DNA of 64,000 nucleotides, from the NCBI GenBank assembly GCA_944376715.1, contig CALWDO010000008.1, forward strand, positions 1 to 64,000, in the 5' to 3' direction. Source of the stretch: an uncultured Lachnoclostridium sp. GTDB taxonomy: Bacteria; Bacillota; Clostridia; Lachnospirales; Lachnospiraceae. A program made the position numbers and the translations under genes. Below, piece by piece: positions 28,833 through 36,539 of this stretch (the stretch's first letter is position 1; the number at the start of each line of letters is the position of its first letter). The notes beneath the pieces are model-generated. The model was not told the origin of the DNA and did not search any database. It was given only the letters and a program-made list of their open reading frames with translations.

Positions 28833-30416
28833 TCAGATTCTTGGCACATATTCATAATAATGACAAATGATTATTTCCAGCCCGGCGAATGAGTATTCGT
28901 CAAATGTAAATCGTTCCTCTTTATACTGGTCCAGAATAAACCCGGCTTTCCTGCAAAAATCCGGATAATTATCTTCCACAGTCACTTCCACCCCTTCACC
29001 TGCCAGGTTCATCGCTCCAGGTTCATAAAACAGCTTTTCTTCCGCACTTCGCAGGAACCACACACATTTACAGACGTCTTTCAAGTCTTCAGCCAGGAAA
29101 TTCCGCAGCATATCATACAATTCTTTATCATCGAAACGGTATATCAGCAGCAGGCAATATCCCCAGAAACCGGATACTTCGTATTTCTCAGATGTATTGT
29201 TCATTTCAATGGCAACGGCTTCGTCAAAACTGTCGGTCTGTGCCGGATATCTTTGATACAGTCTGTAATAATTCATCAGAGTATGGCATTGTTCCTTCAT
29301 AACCAGTTTCAGCTCATCGATACGTCCATTTTTGTTTAACAATCTGTATATCATGATCATTACACCTATACTGGAATCATATGGAGGATATACGTAATAA
29401 CTATATTGATTCATGATATGCACAATCGTATTTAAAATCCGCATGGACTTTTGAAAATTGAAGTCCAGCAGATAATTGGCATAGGAAGCCAGGTTTCCCA
29501 GCAGTTCATACAGCAAGACTCTGTTTTCTGCGACGTTATAATTGGGCAGTATCACCTCCCCGCAGGCGACCTGTTCTGCTTTCTCCCAGTACAAATCATT
29601 CCATTTTTCATATGAATGACAAAACTTTACCAGCCATTCAATATTTTTCCCCTTTTCCATCGACCGGCTGTCGGCGAGATATTTCCAGTACCGGATTAAC
29701 ACGTACTCGGAAACCATGATTCCAATCCTGGTAATCCCCTCCTGGTACGCGTATTGCGCTATCATCTGGCTGGATAGATATAATGTGGCACACAATTTAT
29801 GAAACCTTTTTCTGTCGTCTCCGGCCTTTTCGATGTTTTCCATAATACTGTTTACGATTTTTTCATAATACCAGCGTCTGTATGTACTTTCATCTATGAA
29901 GTACAGTGCTTTTCTCAGCAGACTGTGAAGTTTTTTATCAAACAGATATTCATTAAAAAAACATCCCAGGACTTCCTGAACAATGTCGTCTATCCCCATA
30001 AATCCGATTTCTATATTCAGATCTCCCCAGATTCTGTTATTATTTACATAGTTATTCCAGTTTAATTTGACAGACTCGTCCAGATGTCCGTTGGACGCCA
30101 CCACAATTCTTATCCGCTTGCTTCTGTCCCTTAATGTTAGATTGTTTATCGTCACATCTTTTATCTCATCCAGGCTCTGCCTCACCGCATTTGTGTCGCC
30201 GTCCCATACTTTCCGGTCTATATCTCCCTGTTTTATAACGAGAAATATAAGTTCTTCTTTATTGTGAAGCTGTATATCCACCCCATACTGCCTGTTTCCG
30301 GTCCTGGGCTGGCTGACGGCCGCATACCCTTTTTCTTCAAATATCTGGCTCAGCAGCGTATCCAGCTCATCTTTCTCTTTTAACTGCAAAATGTATTCCT
30401 TAACGATTAACCTCAT
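28833..30416 (-). CDS. Unknown protein with N-terminal PD-(D/E)xK (Mrr-like) nuclease-type domain and helical C-terminus
   Basis: 527 residues; no complete family was recognised. Residues 15-135 resemble the Mrr/restriction-endonuclease-like fold: FEEKGYAAVSQPRTGNRQYG, then GVDIQ with Asp47, a beta strand ELIFLVIKQGD with Lys62, then a helix with RQSLDEI. The E/Q two positions before the Lys is Val and a Gln follows it, so catalysis may be shifted or lost. Residues 150-527 are predicted to be almost all alpha-helical with no NTPase motif. The ATG overlaps the end of the upstream gene by 17 bases, with AAAGGAG in that gene, so the two are coupled. Possible defence effector; function not assigned. 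Confidence 0.7.
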   Translation of the reverse strand: MRLIVKEYILQLKEKDELDTLLSQIFEEKGYAAVSQPRTGNRQYGVDIQLHNKEELIFLVIKQGDIDRKVWDGDTNAVRQSLDEIKDVTINNLTLRDRSKRIRIVVASNGHLDESVKLNWNNYVNNNRIWGDLNIEIGFMGIDDIVQEVLGCFFNEYLFDKKLHSLLRKALYFIDESTYRRWYYEKIVNSIMENIEKAGDDRKRFHKLCATLYLSSQMIAQYAYQEGITRIGIMVSEYVLIRYWKYLADSRSMEKGKNIEWLVKFCHSYEKWNDLYWEKAEQVACGEVILPNYNVAENRVLLYELLGNLASYANYLLDFNFQKSMRILNTIVHIMNQYSYYVYPPYDSSIGVMIMIYRLLNKNGRIDELKLVMKEQCHTLMNYYRLYQRYPAQTDSFDEAVAIEMNNTSEKYEVSGFWGYCLLLIYRFDDKELYDMLRNFLAEDLKDVCKCVWFLRSAEEKLFYEPGAMNLAGEGVEVTVEDNYPDFCRKAGFILDQYKEERFTFDEYSFAGLEIIICHYYEYVPRI

Positions 30417-32265
30417 TTTCTCTCCTTTGCAGATAATCCAGTTTCATATAGACAAATTCTACCGGATAATTGAGGAATTTTCTGGGTAATTCCATAGAAT
30501 AACGAAACTCCGCATATGCGTTCACCTGATATTTTAACTCACCTTTCTGAACAGTCTGGACAAAGGCAATTTTTTTCCCATATTTCATTTTCCTGTCTGG
30601 AAAATATCTTCCAAAAAAAGATCCCTCTCTGGCTTCTTCCTGTATCTTTCTGTTTTGCTCCGCCATCGCGGTCTGGTATTTCCTGTACCTGTCCTCATTG
30701 ATCCGATAATCCTTGTCCTCATAACCTTTCTGCATTTTTCTCTTATATTCCTGATCATATGCAAGGATTTTCTCTGCCAGTTCCGATCTGTACAAATTGC
30801 CGGACGCAGCATAGCTCTTGGCTTTTTCCGTCAATACGGAAGAATAATTCGAATAAATCTTTTCTTTGCAGAACTCAAAATAAAACTCATTATCTTTTAT
30901 CTTATCAGCCAGGAAAAATGCCAGATCTGCGATTTTATTCTCATCGGGCGTAAAAAGCAGGATTCCTTCCATGCCCAGCAGCATCTCACTTCTGACAAGT
31001 TCCTGCGATTCCAAAAAGGATTCAAGTTGATCTAACGGCAGTATTTTCTGAAAAATCTCAATCGAAAGATAGAATTCATATTTGTCTCCATGAATCAGCC
31101 GATCATACCAGTATCCTGTGATTCTTTCAGATTCATTCCGGAATATCATACATGTCTGAGGCAGCGCTTCCAGGAACTGATGGCCAAGCGCATATTTATT
31201 TTCCTTATACAGACAATATAGCTGTTCCAGTACACCTGTACAGTCCTGCTGCGCTTTCCATTTAAAATAATAATCCAGGTCGTTCAGCATCTTATTATCG
31301 ATCCCAAATGGTGTGCTGATCAGCTGTTCGATCACGTCACTACCGTCCCGAAATCCAGAATCACAATCACAATATTTCAGTTCCTGAATGCAGATCCTCT
31401 TTTGCGCCTGGCTTCCGTCTTTGCACTGCATCAGTCGGCCTTTTACCTGGTCTCTGTATATACCATCAGGATGATCGGACAAATACCGAATATAAACAGG
31501 AATCAGTCCCTCCCAAAATTGTTCATTTTGACAAAGACTGGACTCTATATAAGAAAAATATTTTTCAAACAGGGCGTAACCATAAAAAGTACTTCTGTAC
31601 AGGAAACAGATTCCCATCCGTTTACAGTGGTCGGACGATTCATGCAGCAAAATGTCCGTCCATTGTTCGGCGTCTTCCGGCCTTTTGCGAAACAGCACAA
31701 CGCCGATCTGAACTGTCAGCTGCTCTAGCGCCTCAGAATAATCTGCAATAAATCTCCGGAGTACTTCTGATTCTTTTGCGTCTCTGACAACTAGCTTCGC
31801 ATAATTCTGGACGAACTGATACGCCTCTGATCCGTCTTTAACTGCCCGGACAATCTCCAGAATAATATCCAGATTTTCAATCCGGCAGCTTTTTTCATAT
31901 TCGATAAAACGCACTACAAACGGTAGGATTTTCTTATCCGCCGTCTCTTTATGTGCTTCCATCTGCAGTTCCAACAGGCTAATACCGAGTTCATTCTGAA
32001 GAATGTATCCAATATATTCACATAACAAACTTCTTTCCTTTATTGTATACAGGAAAGCAAGGATCTCTTTCATCTCAGTTCCGTTTAACCGGGTCATCGC
32101 TGCACGTGCCATGACACCCCAGCGGTTGCGTCTCATCTCTTGAGTTCCGTCATCCAGATCATCAAAAATCTCATCTGTCGTTTTCCGCAGCAAATCCGGA
32201 TTTCCCTTTATTATCTGATCCGCAACTCCTAAAACACATTCTATTTTTTTCAGATCATAACTCAT
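30400..32265 (-). CDS. Large helical-repeat protein of unknown function, partner of the nuclease-like gene
   Basis: 621 residues, predicted to be helical over nearly its whole length with irregular HEAT/TPR-like helical pairs. No Walker, zinc or membrane motif was found. The last 130 residues are basic and charged (EYKRKMQKGYEDKDYRINED, EGSFFGRYFPDRKMKYGKKI), suggesting contact with nucleic acid or with the partner. The start is ATG 32265, with AAAGGGG eight bases upstream; the frame extends to 32304 without a better site. It is first in a two-gene operon with the PD-(D/E)xK-like gene (17-base overlap). A scaffold or sensor role is inference only. Confidence 0.7.
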   Translation of the reverse strand: MSYDLKKIECVLGVADQIIKGNPDLLRKTTDEIFDDLDDGTQEMRRNRWGVMARAAMTRLNGTEMKEILAFLYTIKERSLLCEYIGYILQNELGISLLELQMEAHKETADKKILPFVVRFIEYEKSCRIENLDIILEIVRAVKDGSEAYQFVQNYAKLVVRDAKESEVLRRFIADYSEALEQLTVQIGVVLFRKRPEDAEQWTDILLHESSDHCKRMGICFLYRSTFYGYALFEKYFSYIESSLCQNEQFWEGLIPVYIRYLSDHPDGIYRDQVKGRLMQCKDGSQAQKRICIQELKYCDCDSGFRDGSDVIEQLISTPFGIDNKMLNDLDYYFKWKAQQDCTGVLEQLYCLYKENKYALGHQFLEALPQTCMIFRNESERITGYWYDRLIHGDKYEFYLSIEIFQKILPLDQLESFLESQELVRSEMLLGMEGILLFTPDENKIADLAFFLADKIKDNEFYFEFCKEKIYSNYSSVLTEKAKSYAASGNLYRSELAEKILAYDQEYKRKMQKGYEDKDYRINEDRYRKYQTAMAEQNRKIQEEAREGSFFGRYFPDRKMKYGKKIAFVQTVQKGELKYQVNAYAEFRYSMELPRKFLNYPVEFVYMKLDYLQRRENEVNR

Positions 32266-32331
32266 ATCTGGTCCCCTTTTATCCCTGACTTCTCCCATAT
32301 TCAAGCCACAATTGATACGTTCCTGTTTGTC

Positions 32332-32484: not shown

Positions 32485-33666
32485 ATGCATCTTCCCGGCT
32501 ACTACTCTTCCGGCCAGTTCGCCCGCATGGCGGGCGTATCCGTCCGGACGATCCGTTTTTACGACAAACAGAACATACTGAAACCGTCCTATGTATCGCC
32601 TTCCGGCGCGCGTTTTTACACGGGTTCGGATCTTGCGAGGCTCCAGCAGATTCTGCTGTTTAAATACCTGGGATTTTCCCTGGACGATATCCGCGAGATG
32701 ACCATCGGCGATACCGATTATCATTTCCTGAAAAATTCGCTGAATCTCCAGAAAAGACTGGTGCAGGACCGGATCGAGCAGATGCAGCTGGTGGAGAGCG
32801 CCATTGAAGACACGGTAAACGCCCTGGAGCAGGAGCGCCAGGTGGACTGGAGCCAGATGCTGGAACTGATCCACCTGACCGGCATGGAGAAAAGTCTGAA
32901 GACCCAGTACCAGAGCGCCACCAACATCTCGGCGCGGATCCGCCTGCACCGGGACTACTCTTCGAATGCCTGCGGCTGGTTTCCGTGGATCTTCGACCAG
33001 TGCCGGATCAGGGACGGCTTACAGGTCCTGGAGCTGGGCTGCGGGGACGGAACCTTGTGGAAGGAAAACATTTCCCGGCTCCCTGCGCAGATACACATTC
33101 TGCTCTCGGATATCTCGGAAGGCATGCTCAGAGACGCCAGACGCAGCCTGGGCCAGGAGGATCCGCGGTTTTCTTTCCAGGTATTCGGCTGTGAAAAGAT
33201 TCCCTGCGCGGACCGGTCTTTTGACCGGGTGATCGCCAATCATGTGCTTTTCTATTGTGAGGATCTGCCGGCCGTCTTTTCCGAGGTCCGCCGTGTCCTG
33301 GGAGAAGACGGGCTCTTTCTCTGCAGCACCTACGGTTCCCGCCATATGCAGGAGATCAGCGATCTGGTACGGCGTTTTGACAGCCGCATCGTGCTGTCTG
33401 CCGAGAAATTATACGACCGCTTCGGCCTGGAAAACGGCCGGGCGCTGCTGAGTCCGTACTTTTCCGACGTGCAGCTGCTCCGTTATGAAGATTCCATCGA
33501 ACTGGACCGGGCAGAACCGCTGATCGAATACATCCTGTCCTGTCACGGCAATCAGAACCAGTATCTTCTGGACCGCTATAAGGATTTCCGCGGGTTTGTG
33601 GAAAAGCAGACGGCCAGAGGATTCCATATTACCAAAGACGCCGGCGTCTTTTTATGCCGGGTCTGA
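32485..33666 (+). CDS. MerR-family regulator fused to a SAM-dependent methyltransferase
   Basis: 393 residues. Residues 1-75 are a MerR winged helix (YYSSGQFARMAGVSVRTIRF, YDKQNILKPSYVSPSGARFY) followed by a dimerisation coiled coil (about 85-125). Residues 165-300 are a class I methyltransferase: VLELGCGDGTLWKENI (SAM motif I), ILLSDISEGMLRDA, FDRVIANHVLFYCEDLP and VRRVLGEDGLFLCSTYG. The fusion suggests a ligand-modifying or self-sensing regulator, such as one responding to a small molecule it methylates. It is monocistronic, divergent from the two-gene operon, ends at a strong terminator and is more GC-rich than both neighbouring operons. Start: ATG with AAAGGA upstream. Confidence 0.85.
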   Translation: MHLPGYYSSGQFARMAGVSVRTIRFYDKQNILKPSYVSPSGARFYTGSDLARLQQILLFKYLGFSLDDIREMTIGDTDYHFLKNSLNLQKRLVQDRIEQMQLVESAIEDTVNALEQERQVDWSQMLELIHLTGMEKSLKTQYQSATNISARIRLHRDYSSNACGWFPWIFDQCRIRDGLQVLELGCGDGTLWKENISRLPAQIHILLSDISEGMLRDARRSLGQEDPRFSFQVFGCEKIPCADRSFDRVIANHVLFYCEDLPAVFSEVRRVLGEDGLFLCSTYGSRHMQEISDLVRRFDSRIVLSAEKLYDRFGLENGRALLSPYFSDVQLLRYEDSIELDRAEPLIEYILSCHGNQNQYLLDRYKDFRGFVEKQTARGFHITKDAGVFLCRV

Positions 33667-33703
33667 GCAAAAAACGCCCGCCACTTTGGCGAGCATTTTT
33701 TGC
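33667..33703. terminator. Bidirectional terminator between convergent genes
   Basis: A stem flanked by A6 and T6 (core CGCC...GGCG around CACTTTGG, with small mismatches) begins directly after the methyltransferase stop. It lies 15 bases from the stop of the leftward gene at 33718, so it can serve both transcripts. Confidence 0.8.
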
Positions 33704-33717
33704 TTAATATAACAATC

Positions 33718-34347
33718 TCAAGAATAATTGTCCTGCAATTTTTCCAGTTCCACGGTGATATAATTCAGTTTTAAAAGCAAATAATTTCTATCTATCAAAT
33801 CTGCCCAGTATTCACAAGTTTCTTCCCCTAAGCCGGTCTCATCCATAAGGTCCTCCAAAATTCCTTTCCTTGTATAACTTCTGGATATATAATAATCCGT
33901 CAAATAGTCCATTCTATTTGCAATTTCATTCCATTCTTCTGCACTGCACAGTTCTGGCCGTATTTGTTGTAAATGTCCTCTTTCAAAACGTACAATATAT
34001 TTTTCATAGATGGAGGTCAACAATCCCAGTAATTTTGCCCTGTCAATCTTTTCCATCTCCCTGAATACAGAAAGACTAAAATAGAACTGCAAAGTGTCTC
34101 TAATTTTTTCTGTTAAATTTCTGGCTGTTTCCTCTGATACACCTTCTCCTAAGAGATACTCCAATACATTTTCTTCTTTCTCTGTTTTCAGTTCCGCCCT
34201 CAGAAGATTCATAAGACGATTTTTCAGCGAATATACTTCCCGCGTAGGCGGTTCTTCCCGGCTAACAATATATTTTTCCCATTCGTTTTCAGTCTGACCA
34301 AGCTGACGAATTACTTCTGTAATCTGTCTTCCATTTTGCATAGCCAT
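33718..34347 (-). CDS. Small helical protein of unknown function, third gene of the nitrilase operon
   Basis: 209 residues, predicted to be all-helical with two similar helix-turn-helix-like segments, EEENVLEYLLGEGVSEETAR (about 55-75) and GILEDLMDETGLGEETCEYW (about 160-180). This suggests an internal duplication, each half ending in a long helix with aromatic residues. No catalytic motif. The ATG at 34347 lies inside the winged-helix gene (59-base overlap), with AGGA seven bases upstream, so it is translationally coupled. It is probably a structural or adaptor subunit working with the two upstream proteins. No family was recognised. Confidence 0.65.
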   Translation of the reverse strand: MAMQNGRQITEVIRQLGQTENEWEKYIVSREEPPTREVYSLKNRLMNLLRAELKTEKEENVLEYLLGEGVSEETARNLTEKIRDTLQFYFSLSVFREMEKIDRAKLLGLLTSIYEKYIVRFERGHLQQIRPELCSAEEWNEIANRMDYLTDYYISRSYTRKGILEDLMDETGLGEETCEYWADLIDRNYLLLKLNYITVELEKLQDNYS

Positions 34348-35014
34348 CTTCCTTTCCTAATTTTTCTTTTATTGTTCTTTCTGACCAACCCTTTAGAAAT
34401 TTTTCTTTATCCTGTATTTCTTTATATTCCGCTTCAATAACGACATTTTCTACTTTATTTGGGGAAAAAGTCATGCGGCATACCTGACGCCCTGATTTAG
34501 TCAGACAATACTGTGTTCCTTTACTTCTTCCGTAACGTTCCACGTATCCTGCCTGCATCAGCTTATTCAATATCTCGCTCAAATAATTTGGACGGATATC
34601 GATCCCCTCCGCTATATTTTTCTGCCGTGAATACGGCGCCCGATATAAATACATCATAAGTTCTTTTACATGTTTATGATCTAACAGCTTTTTCCTCTCC
34701 CTGTTATATTCCTGATCCGCTGCGGCATCATACAATTCAAGAAATACTCGATACGTTCCAATAAAAGCTCCTGCTTCATAAAAAAACTTTTCATTTCCAT
34801 TTTTAGATAATGCAGAAAGTGTTTTTCTGAGTTTTTTATAACTTTTTAGCAAATTATTTAATTCTTCTTGATTTTCCTCGCGAATTGCCAGAACGGCTGA
34901 TTGGATATAAGATTGATTTAATGTCCGCAGCCTTTCTGCAAAAACATCCGCGCACTCTGAAAGTCTTCCTTTCATTGACTGGATCTGTTCTACGAACGCA
35001 TCGCTTTGCATCAT
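34289..35014 (-). CDS. Winged-helix (MarR-like) protein, second gene of the nitrilase operon
   Basis: 241 residues. Residues 1-100 are helical and partly coiled-coil (SYKKLRKTLSALSKNG). Residues 112-180 form a MarR-like winged helix: VKELMMYLYRAPYSRQKNIA, IRPNYLSEILNKLMQAGYVE, RYGRSKGTQYCLTKSGRQV. The C-terminal 55 residues are charged. It may regulate the operon or act as the DNA- or nucleic-acid-sensing subunit. Its start overlaps the nitrilase stop (ATGA), the tight coupling expected for subunits of one complex. No close family was recognised; the wHTH assignment comes from the helix-turn-helix and wing pattern. Confidence 0.68.
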   Translation of the reverse strand: MMQSDAFVEQIQSMKGRLSECADVFAERLRTLNQSYIQSAVLAIREENQEELNNLLKSYKKLRKTLSALSKNGNEKFFYEAGAFIGTYRVFLELYDAAADQEYNRERKKLLDHKHVKELMMYLYRAPYSRQKNIAEGIDIRPNYLSEILNKLMQAGYVERYGRSKGTQYCLTKSGRQVCRMTFSPNKVENVVIEAEYKEIQDKEKFLKGWSERTIKEKLGKEDGYAKWKTDYRSNSSAWSD

Positions 35015-36402
35015 ATTCTCACCTCCTCATCAAATTTAATCCGATAAACATGCGTACAGCCTTGGCAGCAACGTTCCTCGCCTCCACATAAATCGTCCAT
35101 TGATATCTTTTCCGTAATAATTCCCTGTCTTCCTGCCATATATGCCATAAATACATGTGCGGACTGAGTACCTCTCTCGTTCAGCCAGCGAGAAGAGCAG
35201 GCATTTACCCAGATAACACACCAGTCCAGTTCCGGATATTTGAAAGAAAGGCTTTCGAATTGGTAGTCTCCAGAGGTAAATGACGGCACCAACAACAAAT
35301 TAACTTTTAGGACTTCTGCTAATATCCTTAGATATTTTGTTATCAAAAAATCTTTACATATGGCGACCGCAATTCTTCCAATCCCATAACAATGCAAAAT
35401 ATATATACATCTGTCAGTTTCAATATCTTCTTTAGCACGCGGCCGCTTCATATCTACACCGTGATGCTTACATTGCTCAAAAATGGTCTCCCCCATCTCA
35501 TCCAAAACCGCACACGAATTTCTATGATTTTTCCACACGGTCGGACATACCGTTAATTTAGGAAAACCGTTATCCGGAAGTTCATTTCGGCCATACAATT
35601 CCTCACTCAAACAACTGATAATTTTATCCGATCCCAACATCTCAGGAAAAAGCAAAATATCCGCTTCTTTCTCTGCCGCCTTCTTTAATGTGATTGGCAT
35701 AATCTCCTGAAGTTCTTTCTCAACAAAATCAGTCATCGGTTTTACGGAAATATAGCAACTATTATCTCTCTCGTATATTTCTGTTACTTCTACTACCTTT
35801 TTGTCTATGCCCGGAGAGACTGCAATTCGAAATTCCCCTCGCTTCAATGCCATATTGAAAAAACTTTTTGGCATAAGAATATGTCTCGCTGCATATCCCT
35901 CCATATCTTTCACGCGTATATAATAAAAGTTTCTCAGATAATAATAAATGCTGTAGGAAGTATATGCATCCCTGTTTTTGTGTTCCCATCTGCACATGGT
36001 CCGTGGCAACAAATACAGCCTGCATTCGTCCACGTTGTTATTCAGCCCATGAAAAACATACCAGTCTTCATCTGTTGGAATGCAATCGTAAAAAGAGTCT
36101 TCCAGAAAGCCGTCTAAACATCTCACGAGAAATACCATTTCCCACATATCCTCACAATGAGAACTTTCATATTCCAGATCCTGAATTAAAGTGCTGTTTG
36201 CAAGACGAAATTCTGATAATTCTGCAACATTTAATGTTTCTTTATCAAATAGATCAGGAAATTTATCTTTTAATTTCAATAAAATTGTATTTTCATAATC
36301 CATTTTTATATTCCGCATTTTTTCAAAATCACGTTCATTTAAACGGTTTATTAGAATATTCAGAATACGCGCAAATATATTGTACAAATATTGAACATAC
36401 AT
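35011..36402 (-). CDS. Nitrilase-superfamily protein with unknown N-terminal domain
   Basis: 463 residues. Residues 1-185 match no family I know. Residues 190-440 are a carbon-nitrogen hydrolase domain with an apparently complete catalytic triad: Glu254 in ILLFPEM, Lys312 in FEQCKHHGVD and Cys349 in GRIAVAICKDFL. LLLVPSFTSG and a WCVIWVNACSS strand follow, as the family requires. An amidase, nitrilase or acyltransferase activity on an unknown small molecule or protein is expected. Nitrilase domains also occur in some anti-phage reverse transcriptases, so a defence role is conceivable (inference). ATG 36402 follows AGGGGGG; an in-frame upstream start at 36426 has no site. First gene of the operon. 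Confidence 0.75.
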   Translation of the reverse strand: MYVQYLYNIFARILNILINRLNERDFEKMRNIKMDYENTILLKLKDKFPDLFDKETLNVAELSEFRLANSTLIQDLEYESSHCEDMWEMVFLVRCLDGFLEDSFYDCIPTDEDWYVFHGLNNNVDECRLYLLPRTMCRWEHKNRDAYTSYSIYYYLRNFYYIRVKDMEGYAARHILMPKSFFNMALKRGEFRIAVSPGIDKKVVEVTEIYERDNSCYISVKPMTDFVEKELQEIMPITLKKAAEKEADILLFPEMLGSDKIISCLSEELYGRNELPDNGFPKLTVCPTVWKNHRNSCAVLDEMGETIFEQCKHHGVDMKRPRAKEDIETDRCIYILHCYGIGRIAVAICKDFLITKYLRILAEVLKVNLLLVPSFTSGDYQFESLSFKYPELDWCVIWVNACSSRWLNERGTQSAHVFMAYMAGRQGIITEKISMDDLCGGEERCCQGCTHVYRIKFDEEVRI

Positions 36403-36424
36403 TTTGATCCCCCCTCTATAATAC

Positions 36425-36453
36425 AAAATAACATACTTTTTTCAGTTTTTCAA
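36425..36453 (-). promoter_or_regulatory. Probable promoter of the nitrilase operon
   Basis: On the minus strand TTGAAA (36453-36448) and TATTTT (36430-36425) are 17 bases apart, just upstream of the AGGGGGG ribosome site. An alternative -10, TATTAT, lies six bases downstream. ACTGAA-type direct repeats surround the -35 box. Confidence 0.4.
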
Positions 36454-36508
36454 TTATTATTCAGTTTTTATTCAGGAATCGAAAAATAGAAAAAAAACAA
36501 AATACCCC

Positions 36509-36539
36509 TTGAAGGTGACCTAACGTCACCTTCTATAAT
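36509..36539 (+). promoter_or_regulatory. MerR-type promoter and operator before rfbB (19-bp spacer with dyad)
   Basis: TTGAAG (36509-36514) and a consensus TATAAT (36534-36539) are 19 bases apart. The perfect dyad GAAGGTGAC-N5-GTCACCTTC (36511-36533) fills the spacer. An overlong spacer containing a palindrome is the signature of promoters activated by MerR-family proteins, which twist the DNA to realign the boxes. It is oriented towards rfbB, whose ATG is about 70 bases after the predicted start. The regulator is unknown; the MerR-methyltransferase at 32485 is the only MerR protein in the window. Confidence 0.65.

Follow-up and report, generated by a model that had tools for sequence, protein, structure and literature searches.

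An accessory three-gene cassette joins a predicted nitrilase-fold enzyme to a winged-helix protein and a helical partner in gut bacteria

Introduction

Does a nitrilase-like enzyme encoded together with a putative regulator and a small helical protein serve metabolism, or is it the output of a conflict or stress system? The question is raised by a locus in an uncultured Lachnoclostridium sp., within a 64,000-nucleotide stretch of contig CALWDO010000008.1 (assembly GCA_944376715.1) that we refer to as the window. An initial annotation of the letters alone had suggested a complex or sensing system rather than plain amidase metabolism. We call the three genes g1 (the enzyme), g2 (the winged-helix protein), and g3 (the helical protein).

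Nitrilase domains have a precedent that bears on the question. In DRT1, a class 3 defence-associated reverse transcriptase, mutation of the nitrilase cysteine abolishes immunity, and immunity carries signs of abortive infection (PMC13275509). The authors describe the substrate of the DRT1 nitrilase as unknown and suggest an essential molecule, for instance ATP, GTP, or NAD+ (PMC13275509). As for the combination found here, searches of the open-access literature in PubMed Central yielded no description of a nitrilase with a winged helix-turn-helix (wHTH) protein, or of a nitrilase with a Nudix protein, as a system; within that literature, the initial view that no system of this composition had been described holds.

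Gene organization and distribution

All three genes lie on the minus strand and overlap one another within 33718-36402 (Table 1). Reading frames, strand, and coordinates agree with the operon, joined by an ATGA and a 59-base overlap, that had been drawn from the list of open reading frames (ORFs). At the ATGA junction, the ATG of g2 at 35014 overlaps the stop codon of g1, which also has an alternative open TTG start at 36426. The overlap between g2 and g3 (34289-34347) is 59 nt long, or 53 nt if g3 starts at the in-frame ATG two codons farther on. Six close relatives (L056-L061) likewise show overlaps of 59-89 nt, measured between the longest ORFs, so the overlap in the window is not a chance feature. 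The GC content of g1-g3 is 37-38%, against 51-56% in the flanking ORFs on both sides.

Table 1. Coordinates of the cassette and associated features in the window
Feature	Position	Strand	Description or evidence
g1, nitrilase-superfamily enzyme	35011..36402	-	463 aa from ATG; ORF, conservation, predicted fold
g1 N-terminal region, ~residues 1-189	35836..36402	-	AlphaFold2; nothing above cut-off in Pfam, PADLOC, or NCBIfam
g1 nitrilase-fold region, ~residues 190-456	35035..35835	-	AlphaFold2, Foldseek
g2, 241 aa, helical-looking N-terminus and winged helix-turn-helix	34289..35014	-	ORF, domain matches
g2 wHTH, ~residues 114-178	34481..34675	-	Domain matches below cut-off, PDB
g3, 209 aa, all-helical partner	33718..34347	-	ORF, predicted structure
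Conserved operator, 11-bp-spaced direct repeats CTGAATAAAAA-CTGAATAATAA-TTGAA	36446..36475	-	
Promoter-like site overlapping the last operator repeat	36425..36453	-	-35 TTGAAA, 17 bp, -10 TATTTT, TG before the -10
Terminator-like inverted repeat at the cassette's downstream end	33666..33704	.	18-nt arms, 89% complementary, A/T tracts
2.83-kb block missing from related genome G713	33667..36498	.	Genome alignment

A motif scan of a species collection found 86 relatives, of which 80 loci were kept; together with 15 earlier loci, minus six on the same contigs, and the window, these give 90 family members. Downstream wHTH and helical genes accompany the enzyme in 20 of them and are missing from the other 70. 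In all 20 loci of the three-gene form, which include two pairs of near copies (L062 and L076; L057 and L059), the nitrilase, wHTH, and helical genes stand in identical order on one strand. Judged by comparative genomics, the three genes are a real, conserved, accessory unit. The earlier proposal of a coupled set is borne out for order and strand, and is not supported for the enzyme in general, which occurs without these partners in the 70 loci of a sister clade.

A search of 299 genomes of the family with the single g1 sequence as query matched 10, the source genome included. A ten-row g1 profile run against 397 family genomes placed 16 hits, in 15 genomes, below E = 1e-50. Its other matches (E 1e-5 to 2e-11) fall mostly in frames of ~260-310 aa, as long as ordinary nitrilases. 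Among 398 genomes of the phylum, two matched at E <= 1e-12: the source genome itself and a second genome of its family. Absence counts in these searches of 397 and 398 genomes are soft, because at most three candidates per genome were scored at first look. A g2 profile gave eight matches in seven of 378 family genomes, and seven of the eight adjoin a nitrilase gene; the remaining one, in G110, is weak and confined to the wHTH. The g2 test is one-sided, because the profile misses divergent g2 genes.

The initial annotation had proposed to look for variation between strains; a close relative lacks the cassette. Genome G713 encodes a MerR-methyltransferase protein 99% identical to that of the window, and its DNA flanks are 95.6% and 96.7% identical; the block between 33666 and 36499 is absent, with 41 bp in place of 2.83 kb. 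No obvious target duplication was seen at the block junction in this comparison. In four further genomes of the genus (L152-L155), the MerR-methyltransferase gene runs straight into the same rfbB promoter region, and two others (L156 and L157) carry ~1 kb at the corresponding junction. Within the genus, 2 of 17 genomes carry a family member, and these lie on different contigs. Searches of phage, plasmid, and viral collections returned no relatives at the sensitivities tried, with one protein or pattern each, and the operator pattern described below was not found in viral contigs.

The enzyme and its relatives

The Glu-Lys-Cys triad recognized by the initial annotation is complete: all 90 aligned family members have E254, K312, and C349. 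F382, N400, and C402 are likewise invariant (90/90), and E325, presumably the fourth catalytic residue, is kept in 89 of 90. A cluster of conserved cysteines, C402, C439, C445, and C449, lies toward the C-terminus, with C445 kept in 87 and C449 in 88 of the 90 members. The AlphaFold2 model of g1 (pLDDT 84.9, pTM 0.88) has carbamoylase, formamidase, and Nit2 as its best Foldseek matches (E ~1e-10; target-normalised TM mostly 0.46-0.60) and supports an alpha-beta-beta-alpha nitrilase fold and a place in the nitrilase (carbon-nitrogen hydrolase) superfamily. The N-terminal portion, previously set apart as 185 residues of unknown character, has no family match above cut-off; it is modelled as mostly helical over residues 1-106 and then mixed, and nitrilase-like beta layers begin near residue 190. 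A common origin of this region with g2 or g3 was rejected, the hhalign probabilities being below 1%.

The enzyme shares its fold and its triad with canonical carbon-nitrogen hydrolases such as formamidase, carbamoylase, and Nit2 (PF00795), and differs from them in its additional N-terminal helical region, in the conserved C-terminal cysteine cluster, and in that the window protein has no PF00795 match at E <= 1. We compared 45 aligned members, 8 of the three-gene form and 37 of the sister clade, with profile models. The Pfam CN_hydrolase model was matched by 6 of the 45 at E <= 0.01 (best 5.9e-5), the PADLOC CARF_nitrilase model by 38 (best 5e-13), and the PADLOC RTasNitrilase model by 43 (best 5.5e-8). 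Weak matches to Cas10b (4/45) and Cmr2_N (1/45) were set aside; none appeared in the ten members scanned next. Sequence searches of the PDB with g1 and g3 gave nothing useful.

These scores are unevenly spread across the family. The window g1 reaches E = 0.027 at best for RTasNitrilase and matches no PADLOC model at 0.01. Among other three-gene loci, L057 matches the CARF-nitrilase model at 4.8e-7; L062 (CARF-nitrilase, 0.0011) and L082 (0.005 for both RTasNitrilase and CARF-nitrilase) do no better than ordinary nitrilases; and g1 of L015 and of L018 has no match to a defence-type nitrilase model at 0.01 and at 1e-5, respectively. Sister-clade members scanned singly match the CARF-nitrilase model in 9 of 10 cases, at 1.2e-6 to 1.8e-12. 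As controls, six ordinary nitrilases gave two RTasNitrilase matches (0.0004 and 0.0017), one of these proteins also matching CARF-nitrilase (8e-5), and one RT_UG5-nitrilase match (0.0002); three had no match at all. Measured against these controls, the model scores point to a clear kinship with defence-type nitrilases for the sister clade and a weak one for the three-gene form.

Placement of g1 within either known class was rejected, for lack of a reverse transcriptase and of a CARF domain. The likeness to DRT1 and the RTasNitrilase model consists of the nitrilase-fold domain, the catalytic cysteine, and the model matches just given, 37 of the 45 compared proteins being sister-clade members; the difference is a three-gene operon that encodes no reverse transcriptase, in g1 or elsewhere, and has wHTH and helical partners instead. 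No reverse transcriptase was found by PADLOC among six window proteins scanned. The CARF-nitrilase family (CARF_m7, PADLOC PDLC01989) resembles g1 in length (457 against 463 residues) and in its nitrilase half. However, the best-scoring stretches, including the relatives' CARF-nitrilase matches, fall in that half, and the window g1 has no CARF match in PADLOC, its residues 1-106 being the mostly helical ones.

The 70 loci without g2 and g3 form one side of a branch with SH-aLRT 100, in a tree built by a quick method, with long branches and a rooting that we do not trust. Their records are labelled Lachnospiraceae, Ruminococcus, Treponema, Fibrobacter, and others, and many record titles point to the rumen or gut. 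The enzyme gene is immediately adjoined by a Nudix gene in 51 of the 70 (48 on the same strand, 3 on the opposite strand), and no Nudix gene was found within four ORFs in the 19 fetched three-gene loci. The Nudix protein matches PF00293 (1.5e-18), has NCBIfam matches below cut-off only, and is closest to NUDT5 and ADP-ribose pyrophosphatases. This neighbor hints at a nucleotide-linked substrate for the enzyme. In 23 of the 70 sister-clade loci, a SpoIIE, STAS, RsbW-like, or 198-aa companion gene also lies within four ORFs.

Putative regulation: operator, g2, and g3

Upstream of g1, an operator-promoter region (36425-36475) is conserved, a feature absent from the initial annotation. Upstream regions of the three-gene loci are not alignable as a whole, and several share CTGAATAAAAACTGAATAATAATTG-like repeats. 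Two TGAAY motifs exactly one 11-bp period apart are found in 13 of the 20 three-gene upstream regions and in none of the 70 other family loci (for L076, whose g1 is broken, a longer upstream stretch was read). The chance level is a mean of 0.12 of 20, with 3 as the largest count in 300 resamplings, and nine other periods tested gave 0 or 1 of 20. The repeats abut the -35 box, and a permissive -35/-10 pattern lies 22-24 bp past the repeat start in 13 of 13. An alternative pattern (CTGAA, six bases, YTGAA) is present in the window and 10 of the 19 other three-gene loci (including L058 and L054), and in 1 of the 70 others. The source genome (2.9 Mb) holds a single operator site within two mismatches, a reversed control none; at three mismatches, the window holds 3 matches, two of them inside the operator, against 0.25 expected. 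By this sequence evidence, the cassette appears to be self-regulated.

The initial description of the second gene as a winged-helix protein is supported by matches of its wHTH to MarR/Rrf2 and CARF-wHTH models, below curated cut-offs, and to MarR/AspA proteins in the PDB (E 0.0003-0.009). It resembles MarR/AspA-type regulators in this domain and in an operon with an upstream operator, and differs from them in an N-terminus of ~110 residues without a match, an operator of 11-bp direct repeats, and the pairing with g3. The third gene product is predicted to be all-helical (pLDDT 89.4), as had been expected. Domain, structure, and PDB sequence searches found no resemblance of g3 to any enzyme or binding protein, and domain-model searches recognized no ligand-binding domain in g2 or g3. 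A relationship of g3 to COMM-domain proteins was rejected: Foldseek gave a probability of 0.97 for one chain, yet E = 1.9.

The g3 proteins of the 20 loci fall into two groups, 14 (g3a) and 6 (g3b), between which no sequence relation could be detected. L019 has a longer third gene (366 aa). The operator tracks the g3a subfamily: it is present in 14 of 14 g3a loci, with L058 counted in, and the TGAAY pattern is found in none of the six g3b loci, of which L054 has a looser pair. From the unique site and the agreement with the g2/g3 subtype, we infer that g2 is the operator binder. In 13 of 14 operator loci, the putative recognition helix of g2 has Tyr, Phe, or His ahead of L-S/T/N, which none of the 6 others shows; this pattern was examined post hoc, and the agreement may simply follow kinship.

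Genomic context

Clustering with defence islands, raised by the initial annotation, is modest. Among the matches listed, defence genes were located near 4 of the 20 three-gene loci: Olokun in the window (28833-32304; OloB 2.9e-65, OloA 1.4e-13 over the C-terminal part), retron II-A and an FRG protein at L016, CARF-HEPN at L015, and TIR-WD40 at L057. At the remaining 16 of 20, none was located among the matches listed. Single matches to mad2, mad3, and subtilase occur among the three-gene neighbors, with no locus assigned. The scan covered 128 of the 135 listed neighbors of 19 loci, and 25 of the 29 matching families are listed. Sister-clade neighbors have at least as many defence matches, in 91 families (the 25 listed include DpdF, PDC-S02, PsyrT, and AriA), and we claim no enrichment of defence genes near the cassette. 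A single system of Olokun and the cassette was rejected, as the Olokun region is present in cassette-free G713.

Read by eye, most flanks of the three-gene loci look like housekeeping genes. An inspection by eye of the first residues of neighboring proteins revealed no catabolic pathway, transporter, or pathway gene common to the 20 loci. A shared pathway based on panBCD, hemA, or murI-type neighbors (named by eye) was rejected, each occurring at one site; the murI-type site is common to four related loci, and L057 and L059 share another.

Competing explanations

The reading we favor, tentatively and with less than even confidence, is that the cassette is accessory, controls its own expression, and serves conflict or stress, its output being an amidase. 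We counted for it the synteny, the presence/absence block, low GC, triad, fold, model matches, operator, the four loci with defence genes, and the DRT1 precedent. Counted against it were the fit to defence models, to which the sister clade contributes most; the 16 of 20 loci without a located defence gene and the mostly housekeeping-looking flanks; the sister-clade neighbors, with defence matches at least as numerous; the Olokun region without cassette in a relative; the lack of phage, plasmid, or viral relatives in the collections searched; the junction without an obvious target duplication; the two unlike g3 groups; and the fact that a local wHTH regulator is equally usual in metabolic operons. 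Almost as likely is a metabolic enzyme with its local regulator: an accessory metabolic or detoxifying amidase, where g2, alone or with g3, senses a substrate and induces degradation of some uncommon amide or carbamoyl compound found in the gut. Ordinary enzymes are the best fold matches of g1, a lone local operator is typical of substrate-induced operons, housekeeping-looking genes fill most flanks, and the sister-clade enzyme and Nudix could form a pair that catabolizes or repairs nucleotides in two steps. However, the neighbors seen by eye offer no common transporter or pathway gene, g3 is unlike any enzyme or binding protein, and Pfam CN_hydrolase describes the sister clade less well than the defence-type nitrilase models do.

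Two further explanations are less probable. If g1 were harmful and restrained by g2, g3, or both, with g2 repressing its own operon, the cassette would be similar to a toxin-antitoxin module, which we consider unlikely. The tight gene overlaps and autoregulatory-looking repeats suit it, as do 2 of the 20 loci (L061 and L076) where the g1 frame appears broken and g2 and g3 are open, but both come from draft or metagenome assemblies. Typical toxin-antitoxin modules consist of two genes, as opposed to the three of the cassette, and the 70 sister-clade loci keep g1 without g2 or g3, so the enzyme is evidently tolerated without them. Still less probable is general stress control outside immunity, in which the nitrilase would make or remove a nucleotide-like messenger read by g2 or g3. 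The CARF-nitrilase models tie this enzyme class to nucleotide signals, and the SpoIIE-type phosphatase, STAS, RsbW-like kinase, or 198-aa companions of the sister clade would suit such signaling; yet profiles built from the sister-clade proteins found these partner-switching genes in 0 of the 19 fetched three-gene loci, and neither partner has a recognized domain for reading a ligand.

If the conflict or stress cassette is the right explanation, g1 would be an amidase with a nitrilase fold and full catalytic competence, related to the effector nitrilases of class 3 DRTs and to the nitrilases predicted as effectors in CARF-nitrilase proteins. The g2 protein would act as a dedicated winged-helix regulator on 11-bp-spaced repeats against the -35 box of its own promoter, and g3, a helical protein in close coupling with g2, would tune either g2 or g1. 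Release of the operon or the enzyme would follow a trigger, probably infection or stress, and released g1 would hydrolyze an amide in a small molecule. Going by the Nudix partner in the sister clade, its target may be nucleotide-linked, such as NAD. A role in phage defence, which would protect the cell, is plausible, although defence genes were located near only 4 of the 20 three-gene loci. A more specific version seems doubtful: an immune module with neither reverse transcriptase nor CARF, where the nitrilase effector would deamidate a pyridine-nucleotide-type metabolite (for example NAD) once the wHTH/helical sensor pair releases it.

Significance

Should that NAD-type module prove correct, the ADP-ribose-pyrophosphatase-like Nudix of the sister clade would reveal the substrate class of defence nitrilases, that of DRT1 included. 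Because this related family stands free and has two alternative sets of partners, one with a Nudix, the DRT1 substrate question becomes testable biochemically. The conserved operator provides a handle on the trigger, that is, on the inducer of the promoter. If the cassette serves defence, it would add a nitrilase effector that is independent of reverse transcriptase.

Genes and repeats flanking the cassette

The cassette (genes g1, nitrilase-fold enzyme; g2, wHTH protein; g3, helical partner) is bordered by the elements tabulated here. The inverted repeat at its g3 end is likely a two-way terminator; it also sits at the edge of the block absent in the related genome G713. Near versions of the palindrome on the other side occur in related stretches L151-L155. 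The MerR-methyltransferase gene is present in 14 of 41 relatives searched, with rfbB-type sequence adjoining it in all seven fetched stretches; in one relative, L017, a divergent cassette copy lies about 6.5 kb from it.

Features flanking the cassette
Feature	Window position	Description
MerR-type HTH and SAM-methyltransferase fusion gene	32485-33666	HTH at 7-72; methyltransferase domain at about 181-276
Inverted repeat	33666-33704	18-nt; includes tracts of A and of T; g3 and the MerR-methyltransferase gene converge on it from either side
Palindromic GAAGGTGACCTAACGTCACCTTC element	36511-36533	ahead of rfbB

Wider neighborhood

An Olokun-type defense system occupies 28833-32304, 1.4 kb away from the cassette. 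It includes an OloB match (2.9e-65) and an OloA-like gene of which the C-terminal part alone matches OloA (1.4e-13), and G713 DNA also aligns with this region. The contig start (1-17000) is a low-GC block, 28-40% against 50-55% GC in the right half, and some of its ORFs, judged by eye, resemble polysaccharide genes.

Variation in the g1 family

In two draft assemblies, g1 appears to have a broken frame (L061:8155-9210 and L076:7619-8963), with g2 and g3 still open. Among the 45 g1-family members of alignment A4, four matched a Cas10b model (best 1.7e-5) and one matched Cmr2_N (0.0021). In the sister clade, 70 loci without g2 or g3 (L064-L135 and L013), the nitrilase is paired with a Nudix gene in members from Treponema, Fibrobacter, Ruminococcus, and Lachnospiraceae; some of these pairs adjoin SpoIIE/STAS/RsbW-like partner-switching genes and a gene for a BMP-like lipoprotein, judged by eye.
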